From: Hymenobacter sp. APR13
Lineage (GTDB): Bacteria > Bacteroidota > Bacteroidia > Cytophagales > Hymenobacteraceae
NCBI RefSeq assembly: GCF_000737515.1
Contig: NZ_CP006587.1
Location: 2,475,001 to 2,539,000 of the forward strand
Length of the DNA stretch: 64,000 nt
Direction of reading: 5' to 3'
Shown here: piece by piece, positions 44,861-53,792 of the stretch
Position numbering within the stretch: position 1 is the first letter of the stretch
Layout: each line of letters begins with the position of its first letter
Translations under genes and position numbers: made by a program
Notes under the pieces: model-generated
Databases searched by the model: none
Told to the model about the DNA's origin: nothing
Seen by the model: the letters and a program-made list of their open reading frames with translations, nothing else

Positions 44861-47800
44861 TTGAAGGTCACCGATTTACTGAAGCTCTACGCCCTCGACC
44901 CCACCGGCATGACGCTGGGCGCGCGCCTGAACCCGGCCACCCGGCACTCCTTGCGGCCCGCGGCCACGCCCGAAGCGCCCGTGCGCCTGCACCTGCGCGG
45001 CCTCGTGGGTTCCCAGGATGCCGTGCTGGCCGCCGCCGTGCACCAGGAGTACCCCGACCAGCACCACCTGTTCATCCTCCACGACCGGGACGAGGCCGCC
45101 TACTTCTTGGCCGACCTGCAGCACCTGCTGCCCGACGAGGAGCCGCTCCTGTTCCCGACCTCCTACAAGCGCCCCTACAGCTTCGATGAGACGGAAAACG
45201 CCAACGTGCTGATGCGGGCCGAGGTGCTGAACAAGCTCAACTCGCACCGCGGCCCGAAAACCACCGCCGAGCAGGAAGCCGACGACGCAGCCGACTCTGC
45301 CGAAACCGACGGCCAGCCCAAAGGCAAGAAGCGTGGCAAGGCCAGCGCTAAGGAAACCGCCGGCGTGCTCATCGTGACGTACCCCGAGGCCCTGTTCGAG
45401 AAGGTTATCAACAAGAAAAGCCTCGTCGCCAACACCTTTCTGGTGAAGGTGGGCGACAAGCTGGACGTGAACTTCGTGAGCGACATGCTGGCGGAGTACG
45501 ACTTTGAGCGGAGCGACTTTGTGTATGAGGCCGGCCAGTTTGCCGTGCGCGGCGGTATCGTGGATATTTTCTCGTATGCCAATGAGCTGCCCTACCGCAT
45601 CGAGCTGTTCGGGGATGAGGTGGAGACAATTCGGACGTTTGACCCTGAAAGCCAGCTGTCGGTGGAGAAGCGGCAGCAGGTGAGCATCATCCCGAATGTG
45701 CAGACCAAGCTGTTGCAGGAGACGCGGGAGGCGTTTCTGGAGTTTATCCCGAAGAACACCGCCGTGTGGGCCAAGGACGTGCGCCAGACGCTGGACGTGG
45801 TGGACGAGTACTTCGACAAGGCCGAGGCGGGCTTCCAGGAGTTGCTGGCCGTGGCGGGCGGCACCCAGGTGGTGAGCAAGCCGGCCGAGTTATTTGAGTC
45901 GGCCAAGACGCTGCGCAAGCTGCTGGAAGGGTTTGCGGTGGTGGAGTTCGGCAAACGGTTCCACTTCAAGACCGGCGCGGAGGAGCTGCAGTTCAGCGCC
46001 AAGCCCCAGCCCAGCTTCGGCAAGGACTTCAACCGCATCGTGAAGAACCTGCACGACAACCAGGCCAAGGGCTACACCAACATCATTGCCGCCGAGCAGG
46101 TGCGCCAGGCCGACCGCCTGCGCACCATTTTCGACGAGCTGGACAACAACGTGCAGTTTCAGCACCTGCTGCTGGGCCTGCGCGAGGGGTTCATCGACGA
46201 AACGCTGCGCCTGGTCGTCTACACCGACCACCAGCTGTTCGAGCGGTTCTACCGGGCCCAGGAAACCCGCAAGTTCTCCAAGAAAAAGGCCCTCACCCTC
46301 AAGGAGCTGCGCACCCTGGTGCCCGGCGACTACGTGGTGCACCAGGACTACGGCATTGCCCGCTTTGCCGGCCTCACCCAGGTGGAAATCAACGACCGAC
46401 TGCAGGAGGCCATCCGGCTGGTGTACCGCGACGACGACGTGCTGACCGTCAGCATCCACGCCCTGCACAAGATTGCCAAGTACAGCGGGGCCGAGGGCAC
46501 GCCGCCTACCATGAGCAAGCTGGGCTCGCCGGAGTGGGAAAACAAGAAGAAGAGCGTCAAGAAGAAGGTGAAGGACATTGCGGCCGAGCTGATCCGGCTG
46601 TACGCCAAGCGCAAAACCGCGCCCGGCCACGCCTTCGCCCACGACTCCTTCATGCAGGCCGAGCTGGAATCGAGCTTTATCTACGAGGACACGCCCGACC
46701 AGGCCAAGGCCACCGAGGACGTGAAGCGCGACATGGAGGTGCCCCACCCCATGGACCGCCTCGTGTGCGGCGACGTGGGCTTCGGCAAGACGGAAGTGGC
46801 CATCCGGGCCGCCTTCAAGGCCGTGGCCGATGGCAAGCAGGTGGCCGTGCTGGTGCCCACCACCATTTTGGCCATGCAGCACTACAAAACCTTCCGGGAG
46901 CGGCTCGGCAACCTGCCCGTGACGGTGGAGTACGTCAACCGCTTCAAAACCACCAAGCAAATCAAGGAAACCCTGGGCCGGGTGGCCGACGGCAAAACCG
47001 ACATCCTCATCGGCACCCACCGCCTCACCAACAAGGACGTGCAGTTCAAGGACCTGGGCCTGCTGGTGATTGACGAGGAGCAGAAGTTCGGGGTGAAAAC
47101 CAAGGACAAGCTCAAGGAAATCAAGGTGAACGTGGACACGCTCACGCTCTCGGCCACGCCCATTCCGCGCACCCTGCACTTCTCGCTGATGGGCGCCCGC
47201 GACCTATCGGTGATTGCCACGCCCCCGCCCAACCGCCAGCCGGTGCAAACGGAGCTGCACGTGTTTGATGAGCTGCTGATTCGCGACACCATTTCGCGGG
47301 AGCTGAAGCGGGGCGGGCAGGTGTTTTTCGTGCACAACCGCGTGAAGGACATCGAGGAGCAGGCCAGCATGATTCTGCGCCTCGTGCCCGATGCCCGCGT
47401 GACCTACGTGCACGGCCAGATGGACGGCGACTTGCTGGAAAAGCGCATGATGAAGTTCGTGGACGGCGACTACGACGTGCTGGTAGCCACCACCCTCATC
47501 GAGTCGGGCCTCGACATTGCCAACGCCAACACCATCCTCATCAACCGCGCCCACATGCACGGCCTCAGTGACCTGCACCAGATGCGGGGCCGGGTGGGCC
47601 GCTCCAACAAAAAGGCCTACTGCTACCTGCTCACGCCCCCGGTGGCCGGTTTGCCCTCCGATGCCCGCAAGCGCCTAAGCACCCTCGAAGAATTCTCGGA
47701 CCTGGGCGCGGGCTTCAACGTGGCCATGCGCGACCTGGACATCCGGGGCGCGGGCAACCTGCTGGGCGGCGAGCAGTCGGGCTTCATCAACGACCTGGGC

Positions 47801-48391
47801 TTTGAAACCTACCACCAGATTCTCGACGAAGCCGTGCAGGAGCTCAAGGAAACCGAGTTCCGCGACCTGTTCCTCGGCGACCCTAACCAGCGCCTGCAGG
47901 AAGCCGCCGGCACCGGCCGCCCCAAGGAGTGCAACATCGAAACCGACCTGCAGGTGCTCATTCCGGACCGTTACGTGAGCAGCGTCTCGGAGCGCCTGCA
48001 GCTCTACAGCAAGCTCGATCGGGCCAAAAACGCCGAGGAGCTGCGCAAGCTGCTCACCGGCATCGTGGACCGCTTCGGGCCGCTGCCCGCCGAGGTGGAG
48101 CAGCTCGCCGACATCGTGCGCCTGCGCTGGCTGGCCTGCCAGACCGGCTTCGAGAAGCTCACGCTCAAGAAGAACCTGCTCAAAGGCTTCATCCCGGCCA
48201 CCAACAACGAGCCCTACTTCCAGGGCGCCACCTTCGGCAACATCCTCAGCTACGTGCAGACCCACCCGCGCTCCGCCTCCATGAAGGAGCGCAAAGAACA
48301 GCTCATCATCTCCTTCGAAGACGTGAAAAGCGTACAGGCCGCCAAACGGATTCTGAGCGAGCTGGTGAGTGAGGAAACGGTGGGGGTATGA
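44861..48391 (+). CDS. mfd: Transcription-repair coupling factor Mfd
   Basis: 1176 residues, starting at TTG (LKVTDLLKLYALDP). UvrB-homology region near the N-terminus (DENANV.. LLFPTSYKRPY), RNA-polymerase-interaction domain around 480-550 (LVPGDYVVHQDYGIARFAGL), then the RecG-like SF2 helicase: Walker A CGDVGFGKTEVAIRAAF near 636, DEEQ box LLVIDEEQKFGV, LSATPIPRTLHFSLMG, RMRGRVGRS-like QMRGRVGRSNKKAYCYLL, and the TRG domain at the C-terminus. Mfd removes stalled polymerase and recruits UvrA, also encoded here (57029). A charged low-complexity insert (GQPKGKKRGKASAKE) lies at about 145-165. Confidence 0.96.
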   Translation: MKVTDLLKLYALDPTGMTLGARLNPATRHSLRPAATPEAPVRLHLRGLVGSQDAVLAAAVHQEYPDQHHLFILHDRDEAAYFLADLQHLLPDEEPLLFPTSYKRPYSFDETENANVLMRAEVLNKLNSHRGPKTTAEQEADDAADSAETDGQPKGKKRGKASAKETAGVLIVTYPEALFEKVINKKSLVANTFLVKVGDKLDVNFVSDMLAEYDFERSDFVYEAGQFAVRGGIVDIFSYANELPYRIELFGDEVETIRTFDPESQLSVEKRQQVSIIPNVQTKLLQETREAFLEFIPKNTAVWAKDVRQTLDVVDEYFDKAEAGFQELLAVAGGTQVVSKPAELFESAKTLRKLLEGFAVVEFGKRFHFKTGAEELQFSAKPQPSFGKDFNRIVKNLHDNQAKGYTNIIAAEQVRQADRLRTIFDELDNNVQFQHLLLGLREGFIDETLRLVVYTDHQLFERFYRAQETRKFSKKKALTLKELRTLVPGDYVVHQDYGIARFAGLTQVEINDRLQEAIRLVYRDDDVLTVSIHALHKIAKYSGAEGTPPTMSKLGSPEWENKKKSVKKKVKDIAAELIRLYAKRKTAPGHAFAHDSFMQAELESSFIYEDTPDQAKATEDVKRDMEVPHPMDRLVCGDVGFGKTEVAIRAAFKAVADGKQVAVLVPTTILAMQHYKTFRERLGNLPVTVEYVNRFKTTKQIKETLGRVADGKTDILIGTHRLTNKDVQFKDLGLLVIDEEQKFGVKTKDKLKEIKVNVDTLTLSATPIPRTLHFSLMGARDLSVIATPPPNRQPVQTELHVFDELLIRDTISRELKRGGQVFFVHNRVKDIEEQASMILRLVPDARVTYVHGQMDGDLLEKRMMKFVDGDYDVLVATTLIESGLDIANANTILINRAHMHGLSDLHQMRGRVGRSNKKAYCYLLTPPVAGLPSDARKRLSTLEEFSDLGAGFNVAMRDLDIRGAGNLLGGEQSGFINDLGFETYHQILDEAVQELKETEFRDLFLGDPNQRLQEAAGTGRPKECNIETDLQVLIPDRYVSSVSERLQLYSKLDRAKNAEELRKLLTGIVDRFGPLPAEVEQLADIVRLRWLACQTGFEKLTLKKNLLKGFIPATNNEPYFQGATFGNILSYVQTHPRSASMKERKEQLIISFEDVKSVQAAKRILSELVSEETVGV

Positions 48392-48414
48392 TAGGGGCTA
48401 CCTATGCAAATACC

Positions 48415-48464
48415 TGTTGAAACAAAAGGTCACTGAAGTAATTCAGTGACCTTTTGTTTCAACA
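48415..48464. terminator. Bidirectional terminator after mfd
   Basis: A 22-base perfect stem (TGTTGAAACAAAAGGTCACT GA) with a 6-base loop. The reconstructed end of the minus-strand nuclease-like gene (TGA at 48459-48461) lies within its right arm. Confidence 0.88.
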
Positions 48465-49000
48465 TGCAGATATCATAGGATCCTCATAACGATGCTCAAT
48501 TCCTAACCTCCATTCACCGAAGCGTAGTGGTTTCGTATTGGCAGCAAGCAAGGCATCTAGCTTTGTTGTCCTATTAAATCTATCTCTAGAGCCTCCTTTG
48601 GCTTCATTATATGGATCTGTAACAAAAATAGCCTAGGTTTTTTAAGAACATGAGTAGTGTTTAAAAAGAATTGAGATAGAACTCCCATCATAAAGTCGTT
48701 TAAACATGTTAAAAATTTTTCTCTTATCTTTTCTATTTCAAATCCTTCTGAACTTGCTATGTCCCTCAGCTCAACTATATATATGTTAAAATCTCCTTGA
48801 CTGCATCTAATAATTATCAAACAGTCTGGAGAAGGGGGGCGCTTAATTGAAAGACTATTATAATATTCATCCACCTTTATTATGATAAAATCATCTTTGT
48901 TTATTGCAGGGTCTACACACGCAGCAAAACCATTCTCACAGCACTCATCTTTTATATGCGGGAGTATTAGAGCAAAACTTCTTAGATTATTAATTAACAT
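48459..49000 (-). pseudogene. Possible PD-(D/E)XK-like nuclease partner of the ATPase, frameshifted
   Basis: The uninterrupted frame gives 147 residues and stops at 48557. However, adding one T at the T5 run (A5 on the plus strand, 48624-48628) lets the protein run on as KKPRLFFVTDPYNEAKGG.. RFGEWRLGIEHRYEDP to a TGA at 48459, 180 residues in all. The extension has A/T-rich third positions and a purine-first codon pattern like the rest of the gene, so I judge it genuine. Residues SPDCLIII.. YIVELRDI (Asp59, Glu77, Arg79) resemble a PD-(D/E)XK core with Arg in place of Lys. Start ATG 49000, 4 bases after the ATPase stop: same operon. Function is inference; no known family is recognised. Confidence 0.6.
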
Positions 49001-49004
49001 ATGT

Positions 49005-50496
49005 TTATCCTTTTAGTGCATCCAACTTGTCATATATGCGTAATCTTTCTGAGTACAACTTCTCAGCAGTGTCAGAGAAATTATTATCTTCCATTCCTTC
49101 TTCTTCTGCTTTCATAGCTTCTTCATCCATTACACTGCCTAATGGGGTCATTCTCATTAAATAAGACCCAACTCTTTCATGATTTATGTTATCCTCTAGT
49201 AGAATATTGCTTAATTTATTAAACATATAATTACTATGTGTTGTCATGACTATTTTTATTTTTTCGCCTATAATTTTAGTGAAAAAGTCCATAATCATCA
49301 CTTGAACTTCTGGATGTAAATGAGCCTCAGGTTCTTCTATGAAGAGCAAGCTATAAGCTCCAGGATTTTCTCTTTCGTACAAATTAAGTACCCTTGAAGG
49401 TCTTGATGTTTTTTTCTTTATTATATATTTTAAATATGCTACTATGGGAGCTATTTCCGAAATCATAGATGACGTTACGGATAGCTCAAGTTCAGTATTC
49501 ATATTTTTAGGGGCAAAAAAATATTCTTCTTGAATCTTGATTGAACTTAACTTGCCCCCTAAGTATGTCTTGCTCAATTTGAGTAGCTATTTTAGAAACT
49601 TGCTTCATCTGTTTTTTAGCAGAAGTGATATTAGATAAATTTAAAAAATAATCAGACACAGGCTCAGATATATTAGGAAGCTCTATTGAGTTAGTTAAAA
49701 AATTTCTACTCTTCGATAACTCAGCAATTACAGCACTAAATGTGCTTAATGCTTGATACAATCCGGATCTTGACGCAGGAAGAAAGTAAACGTTATCTAT
49801 AACCGCCGAAACTTCATTTCTAAAGCTCATAAACAAATTCATTATAACATATCTAAGAATCATTTCAATATAATTATTTCTATTTTCTTTATTAAACGAC
49901 TTTACATAAAGTGTGGTTTTCTGATCATTTCTCAAAGGCGCTCTATTTGTTTTTGCCTTTTTAATAAATATTTTATTATTAAGTTTTAATTCAGTAATAA
50001 CTAAATGTTTGTCTTTTACACCTATTAGTATATCAAAATCTTTGTAGAACATAGTAATCGATAGCCCTTTATTTGAATATTTGTTACTTAGATCATCGAT
50101 AGAAGAGAATGAATTATTAAAAGATCTTTCTAGATTTTGTGTTATTGAATCAGATACCATATGCCTAAATGCAGTTTCAATAACATTGGTAATTTCAACC
50201 TCTGAATTTTGACTATCTCTCAATTTAAACATAGAATCTACAAGTATCTTATCAATATCTTTATCGATAATAATGTCTGAATTGTTAGGTTTTTCCCTGT
50301 AGAATCTTCTAAAATAAAGTATGTCAAAAGAAGATCTTGTAAATGAGTCGCCTATCATATGTTTTAACATTATATAAACACAAGTTATGGCATATGATTT
50401 ACCGATGTTGTTTTTGCCAAACACAACAGTTAAATCTTTTGCCAAATCAAATTTAAAATTTTTAATAGGACCAAAGTTTTCGAGTTCTATTTTCAT
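49005..50496 (-). pseudogene. ABC-type AAA ATPase (OLD/RecF-like), frameshifted in a G5 run
   Basis: Two overlapping frames encode one protein. 50496-49507 holds the N-terminal half: MKIELENFGPIKNFKFDL and Walker A FGKNNIGKS (residues 27-34). 49577-49005 holds the C-terminal half: ABC signature-like TSSMISEIAPIVAYL, Walker B LLFIEEPEAHLHPE and the H-loop MTTHSNYMFNKL. Removing one G from the G5 run (C5 at 49555-49559) joins them as EQDILRGKLSSIKIQEEYFF, 496 residues. No TOPRIM or HNH domain is attached. The strongly AT-rich codon use differs from the genome. Such ATPases power many anti-phage systems (for example Gabija, Septu, PARIS); the partner gene here fits none I recognise. Confidence 0.8.
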
Positions 50497-50669
50497 TATG
50501 CTTTTACTTTTTTGTGAATTATGCTGGCAATATCATCAATATATCTGTACCACGAACGTTTGCGGTAAGATATGTATTGACTTGAAGCTAAAGTTGTAAG
50601 TTTTTCTGAATAACGCGCGACATAAGCTTGTCATTTGTGCTGATCGCAACAAAACCCTGATTGCCTGTC

Positions 50670-50765
50670 TCAGGAATCAATCTGTGCATCTCGAATTAAT
50701 CGGTAGGTTTTGCCTCGCAACGCCACTATCCGGTAGGAAATGTTTTCGTCCAGCAGCAGCTTCAT
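50670..50765 (-). pseudogene. Remnant of a DUF5615 (PIN-like) toxin gene
   Basis: The ATG overlaps the stop of the DUF433 gene (ATGA). The opening MKLLLDENISYRIV matches DUF5615 proteins, but homology ends after about 14 residues and the frame stops after 31; full proteins have about 110-120. The break lies at the edge of the AT-rich island, suggesting that DNA exchange there removed the rest. Confidence 0.65.
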
Positions 50766-50983
50766 CCGGCAATGCGCAAGTGCCGCTCCCGGTCGGCGGC
50801 GTAGAGCAGGCAGGCCTGAATCTGCGCCTGGGTCAGTTTCGGAAAGTCCTCCAGAATCTCCGGTATCGTCTGGCCGCTGCCCAGCCAGCCCAACACATCC
50901 GCCACGCTGATGCGCGTGCCCGCAATGCACGGCCGCCCGAAGCGTACTTCGGGGTTGATAGAAATCTGTGCGTAGTAGTCCAT
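50762..50983 (-). CDS. DUF433 family protein (antitoxin-like)
   Basis: 73 residues, full length for DUF433: MDYYAQISINPEVRFGRPCI, AGTRISVADVLGWLGSGQTI, then PEILEDFPKLTQAQIQACLLYAADRER. The family is a winged-helix/HTH protein that usually forms a pair with a DUF5615 PIN-like toxin, with overlapping genes. Here the partner (50670-50765) is truncated, leaving an orphan antitoxin. Confidence 0.88.
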   Translation of the reverse strand: MDYYAQISINPEVRFGRPCIAGTRISVADVLGWLGSGQTIPEILEDFPKLTQAQIQACLLYAADRERHLRIAG

Positions 50984-51127
50984 AAGTCCGGGGCTTTCTC
51001 AAATGTGCGGAATATTGAGAAAATAGTTCTCAATACTTGCTTCAAGTACGCTGCCCCGCCACACCCACTCCCACCGCTGCTCCAGCCTCTGCGGCGGCGG
51101 GCTGAGGGCGTTGCGCCCCCGTTACCA

Positions 51128-51356
51128 ACGCATGCCACCCGGTTAGCACGGCTTGTCAGCCCGCCACTGGGCGGTGCCGCGGGGGCGGCGGCCCTTGTCA
51201 CGGGGGCAGCGGGCGGCGCCACCGGGTCAGGGGGCGTTGTCACGGGGGCCGAGGGCCTTGCCACCCGGTCAGGGCCCGTTGTCACGCGGGCAGCGGGCGT
51301 TGCCACCGGGGCAACGGGCGTTGTCAGGGCGGCAGCGGGCGTTGCCACTCCGGCAG
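51128..51356. repeat. 21-bp GC-rich tandem array (about 11 units)
   Basis: From 51191 to 51356 there are eight clean units of 21 bases following the pattern GGCGTTGTCACGGGGGCAGC, alternating GTTGTCAC and GTTGCCAC; three degenerate units precede them from 51128. Period 21 keeps reading frame, and one plus-strand frame would read as a heptapeptide repeat GVxTGAx. The array ends 78 bases before the ATG of the gene at 51434. No spacers, so not CRISPR. Confidence 0.88.
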
Positions 51357-51433
51357 AAAAAAGTTGCCGCCCGGCGTTGCGGATGCTCCCGGCCACCGCG
51401 TATCTTCCGCAGGTACTTAACCCTTATGCTCTT

Positions 51434-52120
51434 ATGACCGATAAGCAACGCGCCCGCCTCACCATGATGCAGGCCACCCTCGCCGTCCTCGACCAGTATG
51501 CCGAGGTCTATGCCGCCAACAAAGCCTTGGGCACGGCCCGCGCCGAGCTGGCCGCCCTGGTCCAGGACCTGGACCCCACCGCCGACACCCAGCAAAGCGC
51601 CGCCGCCCCCCGCAGCGCCGGAGCCGTGAAGAAGGCCACCAAGGAGCACCTGGCCCAGCGCGCCGCCGAAGTAGCCGCCGCCCTGCTCGCCCACGCCGAC
51701 GAGCAGCAGGACATCCGCCTCCACACCGACGCCGACTACACCGAGCGCCAGCTCCGCCGCGCCCCCGACAACGACCTGGCCCGCATCAGTAAAAACATCC
51801 ACGACCAAGCCACCGCCCACTTCGCCGCCCTCCAGAACCAGGGCGTCACGCAGCAGGAGCTCACCGAGCTGGCCGCCGCCCTCACCTTCTTCCAGGCCGG
51901 CCAGTCGGCCCCCCGCCTCGCCTCCGCCGACGGCAAAGCCCACACCCAGGCCCTCGCCGCCGACCTGCGCGCCGCCGTGGCCCTGCTCCGCAACCGCCTC
52001 GATAAGTACCTCGTGCGCTACCAGCGCCCCGAGCCCCGCTTCTACACCGCCTACCAGTCGGCCCGCCAAACCATCAATACCGCCCAACGCACCGAGCAGC
52101 CAGCCAAAGCTATCAGCTAG
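51434..52120 (+). CDS. Helical protein of unknown function
   Basis: 228 residues from ATG 51434 (MTDKQRARLTMMQATLAVL). The frame is open far upstream through the tandem array, but the ATG after it starts the ordinary-looking protein. Almost entirely helical and rich in Ala, Gln and Leu, with DKYLVRYQRPEPRFYTAYQS near the C-terminus. I recall similar proteins (a helical N-terminus, and a terminal motif with LDK, EPRFYTAYQ and AR..I) as common, unassigned Bacteroidota proteins, often several per genome. No signal peptide or membrane segment. Confidence 0.75.
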   Translation: MTDKQRARLTMMQATLAVLDQYAEVYAANKALGTARAELAALVQDLDPTADTQQSAAAPRSAGAVKKATKEHLAQRAAEVAAALLAHADEQQDIRLHTDADYTERQLRRAPDNDLARISKNIHDQATAHFAALQNQGVTQQELTELAAALTFFQAGQSAPRLASADGKAHTQALAADLRAAVALLRNRLDKYLVRYQRPEPRFYTAYQSARQTINTAQRTEQPAKAIS

Positions 52121-52135
52121 CGCGACAAGCTAAAA

Positions 52136-52273
52136 AGCTAGTTCCCCTCCTTGGAAAGGAGGGGCTAGGGGTGTTGATGGCTGTATGAACGATTACTAGA
52201 ATCTAGTTCTAAACACCGTTCAATGATTGTCAACCACCCCTAGCCCCCTCCTTTCCAAGGAGGGGAACTAGCT
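52136..52273. repeat. Long palindrome, CTAGTTCCCCTCC family, copy 2
   Basis: Arms AGCTAGTTCCCCTCCTTGG and the complementary CCAAGGAGGGGAACTAGCT; the inner section (ATTACTAGAATCTAGTTCTA) is inverted relative to copies 1 and 3, showing that the element can sit either way round. Confidence 0.92.
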
Positions 52274-52362
52274 TCTAACCCCAATCTGACGTGCGCCCTT
52301 CTCCAGGCAAACCCGCAACGTCCGCTCCTGCCCAGGGGCGGCCGTTGCGGGTTTATTGCCGG

Positions 52363-52526
52363 TGTAGAGACGCGTATTCGCGTCTCGTCGTCCGCGCCGC
52401 TTGGGCAGCACGGCCCCACACCGGTCGTTCAACGACAAGACGCGAATACGCGTCTCTACAGTAGTGCCGCCCGGGCAAGTACGGCCCCGGGCCGTTCAAC
52501 GACGAGACGCGAATACGCGTCTCTAC
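52363..52526. repeat. GTAGAGACGC palindrome family, one left arm and two right arms
   Basis: The left arm TGTAGAGACGCGTATTCGCG with TCTCGTCG (52363-52390) has two complementary right arms, at 52433-52460 and 52500-52526. The second right arm includes the TAG stop codon of the ABC ATPase gene. The related element at 59925-60044 has a different core. Confidence 0.92.
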
Positions 52527-53551: not shown

Positions 53552-53585
53552 CGCCGTTCAGCCTCGGCGCAGGGTGAGTGGCAGC

Positions 53586-53761
53586 TAAAGCTAAAAGCTA
53601 GTTCCCCTCCTTGGAAAGGAGGGGTTAGGGGTGGTTGACAATCGTTGAACGGTGTTTAGAACTAGATTCTAGTAATCGTTCTATCGGCCATCAACCACCC
53701 CTAACCCACACTCGCTCGATGCGCGACATTTTCCAAGGAGGGGAACTAGCTTTTAGCTTTA
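53586..53761. repeat. Long palindrome, CTAGTTCCCCTCC family, copy 3, with an insert
   Basis: Arms TAAAGCTAAAAGCTAGTTCC at both ends. In the right arm the expected CTCC after CACCCCTAACCC is replaced at about 53708-53728 by an unrelated 21-base block containing CACTCGCTCGATGCGCGAC, breaking the stem. Inner part shares GTTGACAATCGTTGAACGG with copy 1. Confidence 0.92.
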
Positions 53762-53792
53762 GTATCCGCAAACCGGCCCGGCCCAAACGCAA

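Follow-up and report, generated by a model that had tools for sequence, protein, structure and literature searches.

The ATPase and partner genes

The stretch of 64,000 nucleotides analysed here (the window) spans positions 2475001-2539000 of contig C1 in the four-contig, 5.0 Mb genome of Hymenobacter sp. APR13, and it contains, on the minus strand, a gene for an ABC-type ATPase followed by a gene for a small nuclease-like protein, hereafter the partner (Table 1). An earlier examination of the DNA letters alone (the sequence-only reading) had described the pair as about 2 kb of AT-rich DNA in GC-rich surroundings, and the composition agrees, with 30.8% GC across 48462-50499 vs 61.7% in the remainder of the window. 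The same reading had placed the genes four bases apart, had given the second protein ca. 180 residues and had called two frameshifts, all of which we found: the partner open reading frame (ORF) starts four bases past the ATPase stop, the partner reaches ca. 180 residues when the second frame down to 48462 is counted in alignments with homologues, and each gene has a single break, which falls within or close to a run of T. Homologues of the ATPase change frame at ca. 49510-49526, with some alignments overlapping to 49568, and those of the partner at ca. 48620-48629, the final residues of the partner ORF being in a frame that differs from the homologues. The breaks were left unmended and the pieces of both genes were searched separately.

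Table 1. Features of the gene pair and of its surroundings, in window positions
Feature	Position	Strand	Remarks
mfd (presumed)	44861-48391		complete gene, 1176 aa; the AT-rich ca. 2 kb lie downstream
Inverted repeat	48415-48464		perfect, 23 nt, 4-nt loop; at the end of the partner gene
Partner, C-terminal stretch, other frame	48462-48629	minus	terminates in a conserved cysteine
Partner as read	48557-49000	minus	147 aa ORF; motifs KVDEYYNSL, PPSPDCLI and VELRDI
ATPase, C-terminal piece, other frame	49005-49577	minus	Walker B FIEEPEAHLHPE; TTHSN histidine
ATPase, N-terminal piece	49507-50496	minus	329 aa ORF; Walker A FGKNNIGKS; PASRSG arginine
AT-rich open tail	50497-50640	minus	directly before the ATPase start; TAATG overlap with that start
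DUF433 gene	50762-50983	minus	intact; within 50630-50983, bordering the AT-rich insert
Tandem repeats	51169-51348		GC-rich, 21/42 nt

The N-terminal ATPase ORF matched AAA_15/AAA_23 and the C-terminal one AAA_15/AAA_21, in both cases above curated cut-offs, and the two pieces carry the Walker A, Walker B and late histidine of an ABC head fold of the SMC/Rad50/OLD type. In comparisons of structure models, the ATPase fold was near the heads of PtuA, Rad50 and SMC, and the top Foldseek and VIA matches of the family model included Septu/retron PtuAB. Among the PADLOC profiles, the ATPase matched AriA, and its pieces scored 36.5-53.9 bits with PD-T4-4_A, which was among the better matches; comparison of the ATPase profile with the Protein Data Bank (PDB) by sequence gave none at E<=1e-10. 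The protein is an ABC/SMC-type P-loop ATPase, not AAA+, so that the earlier label of "ABC-type AAA ATPase" stands for the ABC type and for both Walker motifs and falls for the AAA+ assignment. This agrees with published comments that OLD-ABC-type ATPases are frequently mislabelled as AAA+ (PMC12839542).

The window partner ORF did not match any model in Pfam, NCBIfam or PADLOC. HNH, TOPRIM and DUF4435 effector identities were rejected, as anticipated by the sequence-only reading, since none had a match in the libraries used, neither with the window ORF (Pfam, NCBIfam and PADLOC) nor with eight aligned partner rows (Pfam and PADLOC); the single PADLOC match of these eight rows was of one row to REase_III, and weak (E 0.094). 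A partner profile retrieved 152 proteins at E<=0.001, window's own counted, and lengths in the family range from 165 to 205 aa. Across 88 aligned rows, the residues D, D, E and K were invariant, with an additional K/R at the PD-(D/E)xK position; in the signature itself, D60 and E78 were present in 88/88 rows, and position 80 was K in 69 and R in 19, the window partner having R. The partner model (pLDDT 92) best resembled PD-(D/E)XK nucleases, with modest Z values of 4-6 from a single model, and was likened to the DNA nucleases Can1/Can2, HamA and FokI; the partner profile also had a weak match (E 0.46) close to the C-terminus of EcoP15I. The motif and the model support the resemblance first seen in the PD...ELR residues, and profile and fold searches did not surface any known non-nuclease family for the small protein, so we consider the partner a PD-(D/E)XK-like protein and a putative nuclease. 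Four cysteines (C21, C61, C67 and C180, in P0003 columns) are kept in 87-88 of the 88 aligned rows, and are mostly missing from the rows of viral contigs and Bacillota; three or four of them could form a metal site in most cellular partners.

Linkage and distribution of the pair

Scanning two peptide patterns over one genome per species (84,980 species), we retrieved 47 loci, a lower bound, which according to database records cover Bacteroidota, Pseudomonadota, Thermodesulfobacteriota, Myxococcota, Campylobacterota and Bacillota. A homologous ATPase gene lies upstream of the partner in 46 of the 47 (the best phmmer match at each locus having E 5e-37 or lower), the sole exception being L025, where the contig starts 214 bases upstream. 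In 40/46 loci the two genes are separated by -29 to +15 nt, and nowhere by more than 374 nt. The upstream ORF holds only one ATPase part in L016 and L036, and these copies may thus also be broken.

These partial ORFs, together with two frame breaks within 2 kb, are what would be expected if the copy in the window were a decayed pseudogene pair lacking present function, an explanation compatible with any reading of the family. Homopolymers are a frequent context of sequencing errors, and the position of both breaks in or near T homopolymers speaks against decay, as does the otherwise complete set of motif residues within the pieces. We regard decay of this copy as a serious possibility that we lean slightly against.

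An ATPase-profile search of viral contigs yielded 38 loci, eight of them with full-length ATPases of this clade, and all eight adjoin a partner (profile E 8e-29 to 2e-43); the remaining 30 showed no partner match at E<=1. Searching viral contigs directly with the partner returned nothing, so that the pair was reached there through the ATPase. The ATPase search was negative in phages, and in plasmids it produced 27 records, whose matches were weak and for the most part partial. In Escherichia coli, the pair is present at >=99% identity in 8 of 5,426 genomes and, in the one genome inspected, it lies between icd and intE, a prophage locus. Both E. coli products, annotated as 'AAA family ATPase' and 'hypothetical protein', are unbroken; they match the profiles with E 1.7e-149 (ATPase) and 7.9e-46 (partner), and show 35-37% identity with the window pieces. 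The intact E. coli pair is WP_024246526.1 plus WP_024246527.1 in NZ_CP132979.1.

The distribution is otherwise sporadic. Among 200 genomes of the host family, a single-sequence query found the partner only in the window genome, and a profile search of 395 genomes of the phylum found it in five, window's own counted. The ATPase profile matched eight of 296 phylum genomes at E<=1e-30: the four with E<1e-80, which include the window genome, all hold the partner too, and the other four have partial matches (E 1e-33 to 1e-41) that we took as other families. An SMC/Rad50-like ATPase beside a nuclease-like partner could also be a housekeeping or DNA-repair pair, in the manner of a small SbcCD-like machine, and many neighbours at other loci are indeed housekeeping genes. 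We nevertheless consider this very unlikely, given the scattered occurrence within family and phylum, the AT-richness of the pair relative to its flanks and the copies in viral contigs and in a prophage.

Together, these data support that ATPase and partner form one tightly linked, transferred two-gene module. Co-occurrence in other genomes, whose lack would have spoken against the sequence-only reading, is strong (46/47 loci and 8/8 viral-contig ATPases of the clade). Transfer had been proposed from base composition; copies occur in viral contigs and in a prophage and, of the 44 loci elsewhere with sufficient flank, 42 have a pair that is richer in AT than the flank. We consider it likely that the pair is a horizontally moving anti-phage module, with an ATPase sensor, a nuclease effector and an abortive outcome. 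The observed basis for this is the linkage, the ATPase motifs, the catalytic-type residues, the fold predictions, the viral and prophage copies and a variable slot in the genus (see below); nuclease activity, complex formation, trigger, substrate and abortive outcome we infer. A dimer of the OLD/Septu-type ABC ATPase would act as infection sensor and carrier, and the small PD-(D/E)XK protein as its nuclease effector. Upon infection, the ATPase would bind and hydrolyse ATP and thereby allow the nuclease to cleave nucleic acid, halting both growth and phage. By analogy with the effectors WonB and AriB, host tRNA or rRNA would be a somewhat likelier target than the chromosome.

Comparison with known ATPase-nuclease systems

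Among the closest described analogues in organization is WonAB, from the WASA-1 prophage of V. cholerae, which consists of an OLD-ABC ATPase and a PD-(D/E)xK nuclease; its defence requires both genes and both active sites, and infection is aborted (PMC12137116). Like WonAB, the pair described here is a two-gene operon in which an OLD-type ABC ATPase precedes a small PD-(D/E)xK protein, and can be prophage-borne. The residues published are R182, E300 and H333 in WonA and K71 in WonB (PMC12137116); the Walker B glutamate and the late histidine are thus 33 positions apart in WonA, and 32-33 here where both could be located.

The comparison was done by proxy, with WonAB-like pairs from viral contigs (L074, L079, L081, L083 and L089). 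Their ATPases have the arginine at 181-186, the glutamate at 301-305 and the histidine at 336-338, near but not equal to the published positions, and they gave no hit in a pattern search for Walker A. Their partners are 139-145 aa long and, where ELK was located, it lies near 68-71; that of L079 has 145 aa with K71, and L079 scores as PADLOC PDC-M29A/B. The WonB-like partners (L074, L079, L083 and L089) and the window partner family align with an hhalign probability of only 1.4%. Likewise, a tree of 54 ATPases groups the 42 found with this partner (33 genome loci, eight viral ones and the N-terminal piece from the window) apart from the WonAB-like and PD-T4-4-like sets, so that the proxy ATPases fall outside, with support of 92/95, just below the star of the tool, and with long-branch and composition warnings.

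The behaviour of WonB bears on two alternatives to an abortive sensor-effector module. The pair could be toxin-antitoxin-like, the ATPase neutralising the nuclease in a self-maintaining cassette for which phage defence is incidental; a compact, often overlapping operon that occurs as a unit in varied contexts and has copies in viral contigs and a prophage locus would suit such a role. We find it improbable, however, given that WonB is toxic only in the presence of WonA (PMC12137116), which is hard to reconcile with simple sequestration, and that the slot in the genus carries other defence-like genes. Alternatively, the nuclease could cut invading phage or plasmid DNA directly, as in restriction, with survival of the host. 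PtuAB and Gabija cut invading DNA directly. The proximity of the ATPase fold to PtuA, Rad50 and SMC heads, which handle DNA, the likeness of the partner model to Can1/Can2, HamA and FokI, and the weak match with EcoP15I all favour a DNA target. Against it, over-produced WonB stops translation and leaves genomic DNA intact (PMC12137116), and a partner of this size shows no obvious separate domain for sequence recognition, judging from its length and the single model; direct restriction is accordingly a possible but rather doubtful alternative to the abortive module.

PD-T4-4 of E. coli is also alike in design, combining an AAA_15-type ATPase with a PD-(D/E)XK partner (PMC10952713; see also PMC9519451). 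The locus with a strong PD-T4-4_A score (L063, 147 bits) has its ATPase on another branch and a different partner; when this was pooled with three others, the profile match with the window partner family had a probability of 72.6% (E 3.2e-5) over only 30 columns around the D-E-K motif. As far as these alignments indicate, the partners seem to belong to distinct PD-(D/E)XK families, or to be very distantly related, and each type goes with an ATPase branch of its own. More pairs of an ATPase and a small ExK protein were seen in viral contigs, at L063:3332-5374, L070:2915-4963 and L068:2909-4990, and the partners of L063 and L070 matched no PADLOC model at E<=0.01. Among other relatives, the ATPase fold is like that of Septu/retron PtuAB and the ATPase matches the AriA profile of PARIS (AriAB), but the partner matches, in the libraries used, neither the HNH domain of a PtuB-type effector nor the TOPRIM/DUF4435 of an AriB-type one.

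By description, the pair further resembles the category 'OLD-ABC ATPase + Novel REase', in which an OLD-ABC ATPase adjoins a novel partner of restriction-enzyme fold, reported from 0.96% of bacterial genomes and said to include WonAB homologues (Krishnan et al. 2020, via citing papers); the window family differs from the WonAB proxies, and the survey might nonetheless contain it. Near BREX, the nucleases paired with OLD-ABC ATPases are of the HNH, PD-(D/E)XK or PIN kind, and host tRNAs are cleaved by AriB (PMC12839542). In validated new systems of E. coli, PD-(D/E)XK is the commonest domain (PMC13092281), and an E. coli version of the pair may already be among them. Our literature search, with most subscription papers outside its coverage, found no paper naming this ATPase-partner family (see also the related PMC12409358, PMC10853773 and PMC3710099). 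The sequence-only reading had proposed an undescribed defence module of a shape typical of anti-phage systems: the likeness to a described class agrees with the second part, and of the first there remains that the specific family is apparently uncatalogued, its general class being already described in WonAB, PD-T4-4 and OLD-ABC + REase. Whether the pair represents an undescribed anti-phage family, in which an OLD/Septu-type ABC ATPase would control a new PD-(D/E)XK family across several phyla and viral contigs, with cysteines in most cellular members, we consider an even call.

The region behind mfd and the context of other copies

Upstream of the AT-rich DNA lies a gene that, from its sequence, we take to be mfd, and this gene served as an anchor in 21 genomes of the genus, of which 20 loci were returned and the 1.5 kb behind mfd measured; anchoring synteny by the DUF433 gene was uninformative. 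This stretch had less than 45% GC in 10 of the 20 loci, window's own counted. The slot corresponds to 48388-51057 of the window, with counterpart cargo in L164-L168 of the same genus, and a far-flank match to the window within 51.06-52.35 kb was present in five of the seven genomes inspected (L164-L167 and L169).

The cargo varies among genomes. It includes a 989-aa NACHT protein in G142 (PF05729 above cut-off), an OLD-like ABC ATPase in G128 (AAA_21 above cut-off) and, in G140 (L166:6577-8467), an ABC ATPase (AAA_21 above cut-off) with a 161-aa PIN-like protein. AAA_21 matches 16-27 places in each of these genomes and occurs in all 14 control genomes and, being so widespread, it denotes an ABC-type ATPase and not a defence role. 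The G140 ATPase had one weak OLD match in the PDB by sequence, and for plasmid homologues of the PIN-like protein, five of the six rows shown, of 12 records, have a DUF3696 gene that overlaps or lies next to them; by its predicted products, the G140 couple is another ATPase-nuclease pair. Other cargo was labelled by eye as HEPN-like (G148, with no PDB match by sequence at E<=0.01), KAP-like (G044) and GHKL-like (G108 and G196), with that of G188 left unassigned, and the G163 slot (44.6% GC) contains an ordinary TPR protein. We take the stretch behind mfd in the genus to be a slot whose cargo varies and leans towards defence, some of its genes being defence-like.

The pair had been described as flanked by strong terminator/repeat regions, and a hairpin and tandem repeats are indeed present. 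The hairpin is possibly a bidirectional terminator; a simple terminator scan, however, flagged no terminator-like site, this repeat included, so that "strong terminator" holds only as "strong hairpin". No RNA family reached the gathering threshold in 47000-52500. The open tail next to the ATPase start is, by eye, perhaps a remnant of an earlier cargo gene. What by eye resembles a truncated DUF5615-type partner follows the DUF433 gene (50630-50983, minus strand). Parts of the tandem repeats are also present in the relatives L165 and L166, and a dispersed repeat pair (52127-52277 / 53582-53762) also matches L165 and L167, in both orientations.

No conserved third gene accompanies the pair: clustering of two neighbours on each side at the 47 loci brought out no shared group, and the largest cluster comprised six genes from six loci in varying positions. 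Ten close co-directional upstream genes were chosen, and the eight with Pfam matches were mostly housekeeping; gene sizes had suggested a type I restriction context, but this found no support, Pfam matching these genes to housekeeping families or not at all. With PADLOC at E<=1e-8, two sets of 79 and 84 genes, which make up 163 of the 237 neighbours listed, gave matches to 13 and 22 families, respectively, vs 15 families in the 129 genes of 17 control regions (three of 20 had contigs that were too short), the tool not reporting which member matched.

Three points weigh against the anti-phage module proposed here: neighbours at other loci are frequently housekeeping genes, there is no clear defence-island enrichment outside the host genus by the comparison of PADLOC neighbours with the control, and the copy in the window, from its frame breaks, may be inactive or mis-sequenced. 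The best support from context comes from the genus slot and from the prophage positions.

Pairs of an ABC ATPase and a small nuclease increasingly stand out as a large class of immune sensors in bacteria that is still poorly mapped, and to which this compact family adds clean motifs, a confident model and a tightly linked partner. The intact E. coli copy makes the coupling of sensor and effector testable in a standard laboratory host, and the slot behind mfd in the genus, with its differing and defence-like cargo, is a place to seek further systems.
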